Shown: positions 39,621 through 52,444 of the stretch, piece by piece
How positions within the stretch are numbered: the first letter of the stretch is position 1
Layout: every line of letters begins with the position of its first letter
DNA from: Mycobacteriales bacterium
GTDB lineage: Bacteria; Actinomycetota; Actinomycetes; DATLTS01
NCBI GenBank assembly: GCA_035533475.1
Contig: DATLTS010000025.1
Span: forward strand, 1 to 64,000
Direction: 5' to 3'
DNA: 64,000 nucleotides
Notes under the pieces: generated by a model
Seen by the model: only the letters and a program-made list of their open reading frames with translations
What the model was told of the DNA's origin: nothing
The model's database searches: none
Position numbers and translations under genes: made by a program

Positions 39621-40335
39621 AGCCCACGCCCTCCCCGAGGTAGGCCGCGCGGACCCTCGGGTCGCCCAGCAGGTTCGCCGCCGCATCCGACATGACGATC
39701 GACCCGGTCTCGAGAACGTAGCCGCGATCGGCCAGTCGCAACGCCTGGGCGGCGTTCTGCTCGACGAGCAACACCGTCGTGCCCTGCTCTCGGATCTCTT
39801 TGATGATCTCGAAGATCTTCGCCACGATGAGCGGCGCGAGGCCCATCGACGGCTCGTCCAGCAGCAGCAGCCGGGGATGGCTCATCAGGGCTCGGCCAAT
39901 GGCGAGCATCTGCTGCTCGCCACCGGAGAGAGTCCCGCCGTTCTGCCCGCGTCGCTCCGCGAGAACCGGAAACAGCTCGTAGACCCGCTCGAGGTCGGCC
40001 TTGATGTCCCCGCGGCGACGGTAGGCGCCCATCTGAAGGTTCTCGAGCACCGTCATTACCGGGAAGATCCGGCGACCCTCGGGGACGTGCCCGACGCCCA
40101 GCGCGACGATCTCGTGAGCCGCGACCGTGTCGATCGGGCCGCCTTCGAACGTCAGGCTCCCGGCGAACGGCCGGAGCAGGCCCGAGATGGTGCGCAGCGT
40201 CGTCGTCTTCCCGGCACCGTTCGCGCCGAGCAGCGCGACGATCTCCCCCTCGGCGACCTCGAGGCTCACGCCCTTGAGCGCCTCCACGACGCCGTAGCGG
40301 ACCCGGACGTCCGCCAGGGCGAGCATCGCGGTCAC
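39619..40335 (-). CDS. livF: Branched-chain amino-acid ABC transporter ATP-binding protein LivF
   Basis: Nucleotide-binding subunit of a high-affinity importer of the Liv type. The 238-residue protein has Walker A LGANGAGKTTTLRTI near 38, the LivF-type PEGRRIFPVMTVLENLQMG, signature LSGGEQQMLAIGRAL, Walker B LLLLDEPSMGLAPL and H-loop LVEQNA. The GTG overlaps the livG stop (GTGA). It is the last gene of livK-H-M-G-F. Confidence 0.93.
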   Translation of the reverse strand: MTAMLALADVRVRYGVVEALKGVSLEVAEGEIVALLGANGAGKTTTLRTISGLLRPFAGSLTFEGGPIDTVAAHEIVALGVGHVPEGRRIFPVMTVLENLQMGAYRRRGDIKADLERVYELFPVLAERRGQNGGTLSGGEQQMLAIGRALMSHPRLLLLDEPSMGLAPLIVAKIFEIIKEIREQGTTVLLVEQNAAQALRLADRGYVLETGSIVMSDAAANLLGDPRVRAAYLGEGVG

Positions 40336-41152
40336 GGCGCGCTCCCCAGATACGCCTCGACCACCGTCGGGTCGTGCTGCACCTGGGCGGGGAGTCCGGC
40401 CGCGATGACGCGCCCGAAGTTCAGGACGACCACGCGGGTCGCGACGGACATCACCAGGCGCATGTCGTGCTCGATGAGCAGGACACTGATCCCCATCTCG
40501 GCGTTGAGCTTCCGGATGAGGCCTTCCAGCTCCACCTTCTCCACCGGATTGGTGCCCGCAGCCGGCTCGTCGAGGAGCAGCAACTGCGGGCCGGTGCCCA
40601 ACGCCCGGGCGATCTCCAACCGGCGTTGCGCGCCGTACGGCAGGCCACTCGCGACCTCGTTGGACCTGGCTCGAAGGCCGACGAAGTCGAGGAGCTCGAA
40701 CGCGCGGGCGTCGCCTTCGCCCTCCTCCCGGCGGGTTCGTGGCAGTCGCAGCATGGCGCCCACCGGTCCGGTGTGCTGGCGGGCTTCGACCCCGATCTTG
40801 ACGTTCTCGAAGGCGGTCAAGGCGTTGAACAGGCGGATGTTCTGGAACGTCCGGGCGATCCCCAGGCCGGTGACCCGGCTGGGCTTGCGACCTACGACAC
40901 CGGTCTCCTGGCCATCGGCGTCGCGCAGCGTGATCGAGCCCTGCTGCGGCTGGTAGACCCCCGACACGCAATTGAACAGCGACGTCTTGCCGGCCCCGTT
41001 GGGTCCGATGACGGCGAGGATCTCGCCGCGCTCCTGAGCCAGGGTGACGTCGGCCAGGCTGGTCACTCCGCCGAAGCGCAGGGTGACCTCACGCACCGAC
41101 AGGATCGGGTCCCGGACGTCGGCGGCCGGCGGGGCGGCCGGCGGGGCCGCCG

Positions 41153-41156
<4 letters not shown>
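40332..41156 (-). CDS. livG: Branched-chain amino-acid ABC transporter ATP-binding protein LivG
   Basis: Second ATPase of the Liv importer. The 274-residue protein has Walker A VIGPNGAGKTSLFNCVSG near 48, the LivG signature GIARTFQNIRLFNALTAFEN, GLPYGAQRRLEIARAL (signature region), Walker B LLLLDEPAAGTNP and VLLIEHDMRLVMSVA. The start overlaps the livM stop (GTGA). A short Pro/Ala-rich N-terminus precedes the domain. Confidence 0.93.
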
Positions 41157-42546
<1,390 letters not shown>

Positions 42547-42550
<4 letters not shown>

Positions 42551-43473
42551 GCGGACCGCCCCAGCCGTTCGCCGAGCAAACCGGTCGGTCGCACCATCAG
42601 CACCAACACGAGGATGCCGAAGGCGATGACGTCCTGCCAGCTGAACGGGATGCAGGAGACCCCGAGGCTCTCCACGACGCCGAGGAGCAGGCCGCCGAGC
42701 ATCGCCCCCCGGATGTTGCCGATCCCACCGAGGACGGCCGCGGTGAAGGCCTTCAGCCCGGGGGTGAACCCCATGGTGAAAACCACCCCGGAGTTCAGGC
42801 CGTACAGAAAGCCGGCGGCCCCCCCGAGCAGACCGCCGATGACGAACGTCTGGGAGATGACCCGGTTGATGTTCACCCCCATCAGGCTCGCCGTGTCGGC
42901 GTCCTGGGCTACCGCGCGGATGCCCTGGCCCAGCCTGGTGGAGGCGACGAGCCGGTCGAGCAGCAGCATCATCACCAGGGCGACCCCGGCGACGACGAGG
43001 TAGTACGTCTGCACCTGGGCCCCGAACACGTGGAACAGGGTGCCGTTGGTGTAGGGCGTCGGGATGTTCGCCGACTGGCGACCGAACTCCTTGCCGGCGA
43101 TGTTGAACAGGAAATACGACGCCCCGATGGCGCTGATCAGGTAGGCGAGTTTCGGCGCGTTGCGCCGGCGAAGCGGTCGGTAGGCGACCCGCTCGAGGAT
43201 GAAGGCGACCGTCCCGCCCGCGGCCGCTCCACCCAGTGTCCCGACGACGAGCAGCAGCACCGACGCGGCACCGTGCGGCTGCCGGCTACCGACCAGCTGG
43301 TCCATGACGAACAGGCCGCCGAACCCGCCGCTCATGAAGACCTCGCTGTGCGCGAAGTTGATCAGCTGGAGCACCCCGTAGACCAGGGTGTAGCCCAGGG
43401 CGATCAGCGCGTAGACGAAACCGTTCGCCAGCCCGGAGATCAGCAGGCTCCAGAAGTTCTGGGTGAAGCACAT
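42547..43473 (-). CDS. livH: Branched-chain amino-acid ABC transporter permease LivH
   Basis: Partner permease, 308 residues with about eight hydrophobic segments. It has the LivH opening NFWSLLISGLANGFVYALIA and YGVLQLINFAHSEVFMSGG, the EAA loop GIRAVAQDADTASLMGVNIN near 195 and GFTPGLKAFTAAVLGGIGNI. The ATG at 43473 is preferred; the 27 residues upstream in the longer frame are not family-like. It lies 99 bases downstream of livK, with a strong hairpin in between. Confidence 0.92.
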
Positions 43474-43521
43474 CGCCAGTCGGCTCCGTCGCGGTCCGGT
43501 CCCTGGGCCTTTCACGCTGGT

Positions 43522-43560
43522 GGCCGGGTGCCCCGCCGCCGCACGGCGAGGCACCCGGCC
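43522..43560 (-). promoter_or_regulatory. Hairpin between livK and livH
   Basis: An 11-bp perfect outer stem (43522-43532 with 43550-43560, ggccgggtgcc/ggcacccggcc) with an inner 5-bp pair (43534-43538 with 43544-43548). It begins 12 bases after the livK stop on the minus strand. A stabilising or attenuating role between binding protein and permease is likely. Confidence 0.7.
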
Positions 43561-43572
43561 ATCCAGGAGCGG

Positions 43573-44790
43573 CTAGCCGGCCAGCGTGCTGATCAGGCCG
43601 AGCTCGTTGATCTTCCCGTCGGAGCCGACCTTGTACATGTAGACCGCGCTGCCGCCGTAGTTTCCGTCGGCCTGGAACTGCACGGTCTTGCTGATCCCGG
43701 CGTAGGAGAAGCCGGACGCGTGCAGCCCGGCGACGATAGCCGCCCGGGTGACGCTGGCGCCGAGCCCCTTCATCACCGAGAGGATCGCGTTCGTCGCGTC
43801 GTAGGACTCCGCGGAGTAGGTCCCGGGCGCGAACCCGGCCAGGGCCTGGAACTGCGGCGCGAACGCCTGGTACCCGGCGCTGTTGATCGTCTCCTGGCAG
43901 GCACAGCTGATCACGGTGCCGGTGGCGATGGAGACCCCCGCCTGGCTGACGTAGTGCGGGTCGTCGCTGCCGTCGTCGGACACCAGCTGACCGGTGTAGC
44001 CGGCCGAGCGCAGGGCCTTGGCGAGCAGCGCGAAGTCGCAGTAGTAGCCGGCGTAGAAGACCGCCGACGGGTTCGCCGTCTTCACCGTGATGGCTACGGC
44101 CGAGTACTCCTGCACGTTGCCGGTCCCGGCCTGGCACTGGGTAGTGCCGGGCACGGTCTTGTGGGTGACCGCGATGCCGTCGGCCTGCGCGGCCGAGTCG
44201 AACGTGCCGGCCAGACCCGCGGCGTAGGAGCTGGCATCGTCGATCGAGTACACGCTGGTGCCGTGGAGCACCTTCTTGACGTACGTGGCGTCTGCCGGGC
44301 CCTGCGAGTTGTCGTCGGCGACGACCCGGAAGAAGTTCGTCCACCCGGACTGGGCGAGCCCCGGTGCGGTGGCCGACGGGCTCACCGTCGCGAGGTTGGC
44401 CGCCGAGAAGTACGGCTCGGCGGCCTTGGTCGCACCGGAGAAGGCCGGGCCGACGACGGCGACCACGCTGGTGTTCTGGATCAGCGCCTGAGCCGCGGCC
44501 GGGGAGGCGGTCGCCGACCCCTGGTCGTCCTCGGAGGTGAAAGCGAGCTTGAACGGCAACGTCCCGAACGTCGTCCCGGCGTTGGCCTGGTTGATCGCGA
44601 GCTGCACGGCGAACTTCATGTTGAGGCCAAGTTGCTGGTTGCCGCCGGACAGCGGCCCCTCGTAGGCGATTGTGTAGGTGGGCTTGGAGCCGGCGGTGGT
44701 GCCGCCCTTGCTCCCGCCGCCGCACGCGGTGAGCGCCAGCGCGCCAACCGCGAGCGGGACCGCAAGTTTCAGAACCCGACTTTCCAGCAC
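43573..44790 (-). CDS. livK: Branched-chain amino-acid ABC transporter substrate-binding lipoprotein LivK
   Basis: Periplasmic-type binding protein (Peripla_BP_6 family), 405 residues, with a lipoprotein signal (VGALALTAC, lipidated cysteine near 23). Then come YTIAYEGPLSGGNQQLG near 40, VVGPAFSGATKAAEPYFSAA near 113, and a two-lobed mature domain. Internal cysteines (CQAG, CDFALL, CACQ) may form disulfides. The GTG at 44790 has GGGGAG upstream. Leu/Ile/Val are the usual ligands, but the specificity is unproven. Confidence 0.92.
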   Translation of the reverse strand: MLESRVLKLAVPLAVGALALTACGGGSKGGTTAGSKPTYTIAYEGPLSGGNQQLGLNMKFAVQLAINQANAGTTFGTLPFKLAFTSEDDQGSATASPAAAQALIQNTSVVAVVGPAFSGATKAAEPYFSAANLATVSPSATAPGLAQSGWTNFFRVVADDNSQGPADATYVKKVLHGTSVYSIDDASSYAAGLAGTFDSAAQADGIAVTHKTVPGTTQCQAGTGNVQEYSAVAITVKTANPSAVFYAGYYCDFALLAKALRSAGYTGQLVSDDGSDDPHYVSQAGVSIATGTVISCACQETINSAGYQAFAPQFQALAGFAPGTYSAESYDATNAILSVMKGLGASVTRAAIVAGLHASGFSYAGISKTVQFQADGNYGGSAVYMYKVGSDGKINELGLISTLAG

Positions 44791-44936: not shown

Positions 44937-45536
44937 TCAGCGGCCGCTCGGCTCCTCGCCGGCGAGGACCGCCTCGGCGACGGCCCGCATCGACAGGCGC
45001 CGGTCCATCGAGGTCTTCTGGATCCACCGGAAGGCCTCCGGCTCGGTAAGGCCGCGGTCGGTCTGCAGGCGACCCTTCGCCCGCTCGAGCGTCTTACGAG
45101 TTTCCAGCCGCTCGCTCAGGTCGCCGACCTGCTCCTCCAGGCTCACGATCTGGGCGTATCGGCTCAGCGCAATCTCGATCTGCGGCGTGAGGTCGCTCTT
45201 CGAGACCGGCTTCACCAGGTAGGCCATCGCCCCGGCGTCGCCGGCGCGCTCGACAAGGTCGCGCTGGGAGAAGGCGGTCAGCATGACGACCGGCGCGATC
45301 CGTGCGCCGGTGATCCTTTCCGCGGCGCTGATCCCGTCGAGAACCGGCATCTTCACGTCGAGGAGGACGACGTCGGGGCGCAGCTGCTCGGCGAGCGCGA
45401 CCGCCTGCTCACCGTCGGCGGCTTCCCCGACGACGTCGTAGCCCTCCTCCTCCAGCATCTCCTTGAGATCGAGCCGGATCAGCGCCTCGTCCTCGGCGAG
45501 CAGCACCCGGCGGGGGCGGCCTACGGAGGCGGTCAT
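44937..45536 (-). CDS. pdtaR: Response regulator with ANTAR RNA-binding output domain (PdtaR-like)
   Basis: Receiver domain with E15/D16 acid pocket, phospho-acceptor D60 in VVLLDVKMPVLDG and the conserved lysine in AYLVKPVSKSD. The C-terminal ANTAR domain is about residues 125-187 (LETRKTLERAKGRLQTDRGL), which binds stem-loop RNA to prevent termination. Its M. tuberculosis counterpart Rv1626 pairs with kinase PdtaS (Rv3220c), encoded elsewhere. The 199-residue protein starts at an ATG and is divergent from the tRNA gene. Confidence 0.93.
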   Translation of the reverse strand: MTASVGRPRRVLLAEDEALIRLDLKEMLEEEGYDVVGEAADGEQAVALAEQLRPDVVLLDVKMPVLDGISAAERITGARIAPVVMLTAFSQRDLVERAGDAGAMAYLVKPVSKSDLTPQIEIALSRYAQIVSLEEQVGDLSERLETRKTLERAKGRLQTDRGLTEPEAFRWIQKTSMDRRLSMRAVAEAVLAGEEPSGR

Positions 45537-45600
45537 ACCGGCCAGCCTACCGAGCGTCGCAGCCGGGTCGGCCGGCTGCCGGTTCTCTACGCTGTACCCG

Positions 45601-45673
45601 GCCCCGGTAGTCCAACGGCAGAGACAGTCGCCTCAAACGCGATCCAGTGTCGGTTCGAATCCGACCCGGGGCA
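45601..45673 (+). tRNA. tRNA with CAA anticodon, class I (short variable arm) body
   Basis: The cloverleaf folds well: acceptor stem 45601-45607 with 45666-45672 (seven Watson-Crick pairs), anticodon stem 45627-45631 with 45639-45643 (one G-U), loop CTCAAAC, a five-base variable region, and a perfect T arm with TTCGAAT loop. The anticodon at 45634-45636 is CAA, which reads UUG (leucine). Normal bacterial tRNA-Leu has a long variable arm; this one does not. The D stem has only three pairs with an enlarged loop. After A73 the DNA reads CCC, so CCA is not encoded. Confidence 0.85.
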
Positions 45674-45832
45674 CCCGGCCGTGCGAAACCTCCGTTGCGA
45701 CGAGCCCTGTCCGCATCCGGCCGGACCCTGGTCGGGTTGGCGTCGCCACCGGAGCGCATGAGACCCTCGGGACCGCTCGGTCGGGGGCCACCGCCGATCG
45801 CCGGGAGCGATCCTCGCCTGGAGGGGACCGAA

Positions 45833-46507
45833 GTGAGCGACGTCCCGCCAGACTCTCCCTACGGGGCCCCTCCCGACCCGGACGCCCCGCCCTACGGTGC
45901 GCCGGCGCCCTGGAGCCAACAGGCCTACCCGGCTACGGGCTACCCGACCGACCGGCCGGGTACGGGCGTCGTCCCCGGGGTCCCGGGACGGCTGGCCCGC
46001 TGGTGGCAGCGTGCGCTCGCCCGGGTGTTCGACGGAGTGCTCATCGCCGCCGCGGGCGCGGCGGTCGCGGTGCCGCTGCTGCTCCCGCAGATCCGGCTGT
46101 ACTCCCGCGAGCTGGCCGCCCTGCCGAGCGGAGCCACTCCGCCGCCGCTCAGCTCGGCGTTCGGTAACCGGATCCTGGTCGCGACCGTGCTGTTCGCGCT
46201 GGGCGGGTACCTCTACGAATGGCTGTTCATCGCGGTCCGGGGGGCGACGTTGGGGAAGATGGCCCTGGGGATCCGGGTCGTGCAGGTGGACGGATCCGTC
46301 CCCGGCTGGGCCCGCTCCTTGCGCCGGATGGCCGTCCCGCTGGCCGGAGCGGTAATCCAGTTCACCGCGATCGGCGCGCTCGGCGGGCTGGCCGGCCTTG
46401 CGGTTTTCGTGGTGTACGTGTCGTTCCTGTGGGATCCGCGACGGCAGAGCTACAACGACAAGCTGGCCGGAACGTTCGTCGTCGTGAAGCCCGGCCGCAT
46501 GGCCTAG
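45833..46507 (+). CDS. RDD-family membrane protein
   Basis: The 224-residue protein has a Pro/Tyr/Gly-rich cytoplasmic N-terminus of about 60 residues (repeats of P-Y-G-A-P type), then an RDD domain: [20 protein letters not shown] near 66 (R-x-x-D variant), [19 protein letters not shown] near 120, [16 protein letters not shown] near 140, and closing [19 protein letters not shown] precedes the GTG by about 8 bases. The function is unknown; some RDD proteins are ion exchangers. Its stop shares bases with the convergent gltD stop (ctag). Confidence 0.85.
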
Positions 46508-47938
46508 AGCGGGCGGTCGGTGACCGTGACCGGTGCCGGCAGAGTGGTGTCTCCCATCAGGTAGCGGTCGACCGCGGCGGCGGCCGAGCGACCTTCGGCG
46601 ATCGCCCAGACGATCAGGGACTGCCCGCGACCCATGTCACCGGCGACGAACACACCGGGCACGGACGTCGACCAGTCGGGCGAGCGGGCGACGTTCCCCT
46701 GGTCGAAGTCGACGCCGAGGTTCGCCAACAGCCCGGCCCGCGCCGGCCCGACGAATCCCATGGCGATCAGGACCAGGTCGGCGTCCACCACCCGCTCGCT
46801 GCCTTCGATCTTCTCGAACCGCCCGTCGACCGGGCGCACCTCGTGGAGCAGGAGCCCGCTGACCCGACCATCCGCACCGAGGAATCGCTCGGTGTTCACC
46901 GAGAACACCCGCTCCCCGCCCTCCTCGTGCGCGCCGGAGGTGCGCAGGATCAGCGGCCAGGTCGGCCAGGGGGTGGCTTCCGGGCGACGGTCGGGGGGGA
47001 GCGGGAGGATCTCCAGCTGGGTGACCGCGGCCGCGCCTTGCCGGTGAGCCGTGCCGAGGCAGTCGGCACCGGTGTCACCGCCCCCGATGATGATCACCCG
47101 CTTGCCGGCCGCGCTGATCGGGCTGGCCTCCAGGTCGCCCTGCTGGACCCGGTTGGCCGGCGGCAGGTAGTCCATCGCGAAGTGGATACCGGCGAGCTCG
47201 CGGCCCGGGACCGGCAGGTCGCGCGGCTCCGTGGCGCCGCCGGCGAGGACGACGGCGTCGTGGGCGTCCCGCAGGTCCTCGACGGTGAGGTCGACCCCGA
47301 CGTCGACCCCGGTCCGAAAGACCGTGCCTTCGGCGGACATCTGCGCCAACCGCCGGTCCAGAACCCACTTCTCCATCTTGAATTCGGGGATCCCGTAGCG
47401 GAGCAGGCCGCCGATCCGGTCGGCCCGTTCGAACACGGTGACGGCGTGACCGGCTCGGGTCAGCTGCTGGGCGGCGGCCAGCCCCGCCGGCCCCGAGCCG
47501 ACGACCGCGACGGCCCGCCCGGTCGACGTCGTCGCGGGAACCGCCTCCACCCAGCCGTGGTCCCACGCACCGTCCGCGATGCTCAGTTCCACCTGCTTGA
47601 TGGTCACCGGGTCGGCGTTGATCCCGAGCACGCATGCGGTCTCGCACGGGGCGGGACAGAGCCGGCCGGTGAACTCGGGAAAGTTGTTCGTCGCGTGCAG
47701 CCGCTCGGCCGCCTCCCGCTCGTCATCGCGCCAGACCAGGTCGTTCCACTCCGGGATCAGGTTGCCGAGCGGGCAGCCCTGGTGGCAGAACGGGATGCCG
47801 CAGTCCATGCAACGCCCGGCCTGCGCCCGCAGCCGCTCGGCGCCGAACTCGTCGTAGACCTCACGCCAGTCCCGGATCCGGACGTCGACCGGGCGGCGCG
47901 CCGCGGTTTCGCGCGCGGTGGTGAGGAATCCGGTCGGG

Positions 47939-47946
<8 letters not shown>
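46504..47946 (-). CDS. gltD: Glutamate synthase small (beta) subunit
   Basis: Supplies electrons from NADPH to GltB. The 480-residue protein has cysteine clusters for Fe-S binding ([17 protein letters not shown] near 45, [14 protein letters not shown] near 95), the FAD motif [15 protein letters not shown] near 150, [16 protein letters not shown], the NADPH motif [17 protein letters not shown] near 290 and a final [19 protein letters not shown]. The GTG at 47946 overlaps the gltB end by 8 bases; earlier starts would run deeper into gltB. Confidence 0.96.

Positions 47947-52444
<4,498 letters not shown>

Follow-up and report, generated by a model that had tools for sequence, protein, structure and literature searches.

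Can a bacterial leucine tRNA do without its long variable arm? The question is raised by the sole tRNA gene of the 64-kb window analysed here, which comprises the first 64,000 nucleotides (nt) of contig DATLTS010000025.1 from a Mycobacteriales bacterium. ARAGORN calls this gene, at 45601-45675, tRNA-Leu(CAA), and its body is that of a class I tRNA. According to a 2023 review, tRNA-Leu carries a long arm everywhere except in animal mitochondria (PMC9976931). We conclude that the window gene is very probably a genuine leucine tRNA for UUG in which the long variable arm is replaced by a 5-nt loop, and that it is a member of a class I tRNA-Leu family whose anticodons are UAA, CAA and UAG.

The gene folds into an intact cloverleaf. 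Rfam RF00005 gives a full-length match at 45601-45673 (55.1 bits, E = 4e-9). The acceptor stem (7 of 7 pairs), the anticodon stem (5 of 5, one of them G-U) and the T stem (5 of 5) are completely paired, and the D stem contributes three further pairs. The anticodon CAA reads the leucine codon UUG, and the determinants recognized by leucyl-tRNA synthetase (LeuRS), namely A73, A14, A15:U48, G18G19 and A20a, are all present. The variable region, CCAGU, has 5 nt, compared with the 10 nt or more, including a stem, that define class II and with the 11-15 nt of the actinobacterial class II tRNA-Leu genes read here. Together with A9, C12-G23, C13 and A73, this 5-nt region ending in U48 assigns the gene to the class I tRNA-Leu family. 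A preliminary description made from the letters of the window had noted (i) a near-perfect, functional-looking cloverleaf, (ii) a leucine anticodon on a class I body with a five-base variable region, unexpected in a bacterium, and (iii) the absence of an encoded CCA. All three observations are confirmed, the first also by the conservation described below and the last by the sequence ACC at 45673-45675. The description had further counted only three D-stem pairs and an enlarged D loop, which is correct but not odd: since the class II tRNA-Leu genes of the source genome have the same layout (GCGG AA.GGCAG ACGC), it represents the normal leucine D arm and no anomaly.

The missing arm and the unencoded CCA could also mark a pseudogene or a decaying class II tRNA-Leu copy, as the preliminary description had considered, yet the conservation of the gene makes this extremely improbable. 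A BLAST search against 60 relatives yielded matching genes in 36, and the best-matching loci are class I tRNA-Leu genes with anticodon CAA or UAA. At least 118 stretches were obtained in a pattern scan of named genomes, mostly from Nocardioides, Frankia, Cellulomonas, Nocardiopsis, Actinomadura, Kribbella and others; among the matches listed from named genomes, a few belong to Acidimicrobiia and one to Solirubrobacterales. All 75 distinct class I CAA sequences have A73, A15:U48, the 5-nt variable region and the 3-pair D stem, and 22 of them, with the same A73 and A15:U48 features, lay outside a narrower search pattern. The D-stem pairs vary, with up to four pair types, and yet pair in 75 of 75 sequences, and double compensations are frequent in the stems (for example 33 and 35 at the two variable D-stem pairs). 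Instead of broken stems or relaxed constraint we thus observe intact stems and compensatory changes throughout the phylum, and other tRNA genes of the source genome likewise have no encoded CCA. Decay is further contradicted by a conserved -10 box. A TAnnnT motif that begins between 20 and 9 nt ahead of the tRNA is found in 85 of 140 distinct upstream regions compared with 10 of 140 control stretches, which supports transcription of the class I tRNA without proving it. A scan for a sigma-70 consensus and a terminator found neither.

The distribution of isoacceptors indicates what the class I genes stand in for. In the source assembly (3.27 Mb, 68 contigs, 98.7% complete), leucine tRNAs with anticodons CAG, GAG and UAA are class II, and those with CAA (the window gene) and UAG (G000:C20:56640-56712) are class I; neither a class II CAA nor a class II UAG gene was found in this draft, which also misses some essential tRNAs. 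Another candidate for a class II CAA gene in this genome (G000:C19:10000) was discarded as a chance match, in which ARAGORN gave no tRNA. Across 28 genomes, all CAG and GAG genes found are class II, and UAA, CAA and UAG genes are class I or class II. For UAA, 31 of 150 genomes of the phylum have a class I gene, at least 64 a class II gene and none both (13.2 expected, P ~2e-9); for CAA, the corresponding numbers are 14, at least 86 and none (8.0 expected, P ~3e-6), where both P values are only indicative because of the relatedness of the genomes and of genes that escape the patterns. In two complete genomes, G048 and G043, the reading covered all long tRNAs. Besides Ser and Tyr, these comprise class II Leu for GAG and UAG only (in G048 also CAG), and the readers of UUA and UUG are class I tRNAs only. 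Class I genes with CAG or GAG were not seen on the chromosomes sampled. The best explanation is that in Actinomycetota class I tRNAs took the place of their class II counterparts with the same anticodon, isoacceptor by isoacceptor.

A leucine anticodon on a class I body is unexpected in bacteria, and A73 is common to several other isotypes in the source genome. Both are compatible with a tRNA that carries a different amino acid, so that UUG would be recoded or misread, as the preliminary description had suggested. We examined this alternative by following UUA and UUG codons at conserved columns of 20 LeuRS genes. UUG falls on leucine in 31 of 32 cases and UUA in 9 of 10. In three single genomes with class I genes for both CAA and UAA, the two codons fall on leucine in 12 of 13 (G043), 12 of 13 (G024) and 4 of 4 cases (G048), counted in the LeuRS gene only; tRNA reading was exhaustive for G043 and G048, not for G024. 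UUA and UUG therefore mean leucine where class I tRNAs read them, because they keep to conserved leucine columns there, also where class I tRNAs are the sole readers. With the one-for-one replacement of class II tRNA-Leu and the leucine-type D arm and determinants, this renders charging with another amino acid very unlikely.

Each of 20 genomes, including the source genome, encodes one LeuRS. Two divergent types of the enzyme occur in this bacterial class, ~56-63% and ~35-42% identical to that of the source genome, and class I tRNAs occur with both. We therefore rejected a special LeuRS for class I tRNAs, and none seems to be needed. E. coli LeuRS requires A73, A15-U48, G18G19, A20a and contacts between the D and T loops, not the variable arm, and arm-less variants are still active (PMC9976931). 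By analogy, the single ordinary LeuRS would charge class I tRNA-Leu through A73, A14, the A15:U48 Levitt pair and the G18/G19/A20a elbow, with no need for the arm. The changed core (A9, C12-G23, C13, A26) would accommodate the short variable loop, and loss of the arm would also take away what seryl-tRNA synthetase (SerRS) needs.

Several points weigh against the assignment as a leucine tRNA for UUG. The 68-contig draft misses several expected tRNAs (Asp, Phe and His, for example, were not found), so that a missing class II CAA gene in this genome proves little on its own, and the class II UAA tRNA of the same genome could read UUG as well, by wobble. The search patterns behind most sequences prescribe part of the D loop and the variable region. 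The codon test covers 20 LeuRS genes, one gene per genome, at columns at least 70% conserved among those genes that have no UUA or UUG there. Finally, we infer leucine charging by LeuRS, expression and the mode of the class switch.

Where the family comes from is a separate question. We constructed a tree of 163 class I and 23 class II sequences after removing the columns fixed by the searches. It groups all 163 class I sequences, with 1 of the 23 class II sequences among them (local support 0.895), and the class label changes 2 times on it (at least 19 times in shuffles), the anticodon 34 times. The diagnostic core is A9, C12-G23, C13 and A26 in class I versus G9, G12-C23, G13 and G26 in class II, where G23 of class I is imposed by the search pattern itself; the class I variable region usually ends in [A/G]GU, with U48 last. 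Alternatively, and compatible with a leucine function, the gene may derive from a normal class I tRNA with a different isotype through mutation of the anticodon to CAA. The window gene is about as similar to other class I tRNAs of the source genome (e.g. Gln, Val, Gly) as to its class II tRNA-Leu, and A9 and C13 are frequent in other class I tRNAs too; however, the N13.A22 mismatch, the AA-GGYAGA D loop, A15:U48 and A73 in combination make up the leucine set. We regard this origin as rather unlikely, though worth keeping in view, and class I tRNAs act as leucine readers irrespective of it.

The same compact tRNAs are found on phage genomes. Class I UAA, UAG and CAA genes occur together in Lactobacillus phage LP65; Synechococcus phage S-CREM1 has class I UAA and Streptomyces phage Tomas class I CAA. 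These phage tRNA-Leu share the 5-nt variable region, A9, A15:U48, A73 and the anticodons UAA, UAG and CAA with the chromosomal genes, but lie in tRNA arrays and are annotated merely as tRNA-Leu. A scan of IMG/VR yielded at least 120 stretches; 80 were made into loci, and 78 of these 80 parse as class I tRNA-Leu. We consider it somewhat more probable than not that a single ancient short-arm tRNA-Leu family, common to the chromosomes of actinobacteria and to tailed phages whose hosts belong to several phyla, repeatedly displaced class II tRNAs for UAA, CAA and UAG. Phages would be a plausible vehicle, and the family would constitute the first general departure from the long-arm rule outside animal mitochondria.

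Phage genomes of several host phyla commonly carry class I tRNA-Leu, mostly UAA. Hits also came from Chloroflexi and Patescibacteria. One contig binned as Patescibacteria holds 23 tRNA genes in 8 kb, where a class I Leu(CAA) accompanies Leu(UAA) and Leu(UAG) of class II, and is probably a phage contig; elsewhere in that genome there is a CAA match of the class II type. At positions 37 and 38, chromosomal class I tRNA-Leu mostly have A37-C38, and class II and phage class I tRNA-Leu mostly A37-A38, a difference that may influence isopentenylation of A37 (MiaA) and wobble methylation (TrmL).

Known systems show only parts of this picture. Bacterial class II tRNA-Leu, including all five E. coli isoacceptors, share leucine anticodons, A73, A14, A15:U48, G18G19, A20a, the 3-pair D stem and mismatched 13/22 with the class I form, and differ in the long arm (11-15 nt in the actinobacterial genes, against 5 nt and a changed core in class I). 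Animal mitochondrial tRNA-Leu(UUR) and tRNA-Leu(CUN) also have no long variable arm and are charged by LeuRS via A73 and A14 (PMC9976931), but they are organellar and weakly structured and lost the arm independently, whereas the class I tRNAs are fully paired, bacterial and in use together with class II tRNA-Leu in one cytoplasm. The sole contrary remark we found concerns a tRNA-Leu(TAG) with a short variable loop in a tRNA gene cluster of Mycobacterium phocaicum/mucogenicum (PMC6582537). It resembles the class I family in its loop, leucine anticodon and actinobacterial host, but was treated as an oddity of an accessory cluster with a long-loop isoacceptor also present, and neither a phylum-wide family nor a sole isoacceptor was recognized (PMC6582537). 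The nematode nev-tRNAs likewise break the link between variable-arm class and amino acid and are the mirror case, with class II bodies and non-leucine anticodons that are leucylated (PMC4300185). No paper describing a phylum-wide short-arm tRNA-Leu family was found in a search that left subscription literature and tRNA databases outside its coverage; the genes are already contained in annotated genomes. Of a class I tRNA-Leu(CAA) conserved at this place and well documented, which the preliminary description had held against its own interpretation, the conservation is thus found and the documentation is not. In function, the short-arm tRNA-Leu is very probably an ordinary working leucine tRNA; in structure it is a widespread exception, apparently without prior record.

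Tools, reviews and tRNA-sequencing pipelines treat the long arm as a fixed property of bacterial tRNA-Leu. Many genomes of Actinomycetota, including Nocardioides, Frankia and Cellulomonas, rely for some leucine codons on short-arm tRNA-Leu instead of the class II form, with class II tRNA-Leu also present in the same cell. Their reads may be misassigned or lost in pipelines that assume a Leu variable region of 13-22 nt (as in PMC6297222). Class I and class II genes at the same locus provide natural pairs for the study of LeuRS recognition and arm loss. A further question that can now be tested is whether compact tRNAs disseminated by phages evade nucleases or modification enzymes that depend on the arm.

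The features of the locus are collected in the table.

Coordinates of the class I tRNA-Leu(CAA) gene, its parts and its divergent neighbour in the window
Feature	Position	Strand	Basis
Class I tRNA-Leu(CAA), mature body without CCA (1-72 + A73)	45601..45673	+	ARAGORN, Rfam 55.1 bits, fold
D arm, 3 pairs (GUC/GAC), loop CAACGGCAGA with A14, A15, G18, G19, A20a	45610..45625	+	leucine-type layout
Anticodon CAA, followed by A37	45634..45636	+	
5-nt variable region CCAGU where class II tRNAs have their arm; U48 pairs with A15	45644..45648	+	
Discriminator base A73	45673..45673	+	A73 in 75/75 distinct class I CAA sequences
Likely -10 promoter box TACGCT	45588..45593	+	comparison of upstream regions
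Response-regulator/ANTAR protein gene (PdtaR-like), divergent neighbour, separate from the tRNA	44937..45536	-	Pfam PF00072 + PF03861; synteny

The adjoining ANTAR regulator, correctly recognized in the preliminary description and identified here by its Pfam domains, could suggest a regulatory or moonlighting tRNA tied to this protein (e.g. as a leader or RNA target), with decoding as a secondary role. An ANTAR regulator indeed lies within 1 kb of the class I CAA gene in 132 of 141 loci with enough flank, some of which come from the same genus or genome and are hence not independent events. However, class II CAA genes have the same neighbour in 14 of 16 loci, subject to the same dependence. 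The locus beside the ANTAR gene is therefore orthologous and houses either class, and the adjacency says nothing about the odd tRNA body; we rejected it as a clue to function. The tRNA and the ANTAR gene are mostly divergent and not co-transcribed, and class I UAA and UAG genes are located elsewhere. A regulatory role is thus highly improbable, and the rarely used tRNA that the preliminary description had also envisaged is not supported either: class I tRNAs substitute for the class II isoacceptor and are the sole readers of UUA and UUG in two genomes.

Further genes flank this locus in the window. Downstream of the tRNA, gltD and gltB, encoding the small and large subunits of glutamate synthase, occupy 46504-52444 on the minus strand, and an operon for an ABC transporter of the branched-chain amino-acid type is located at 40332-44790.
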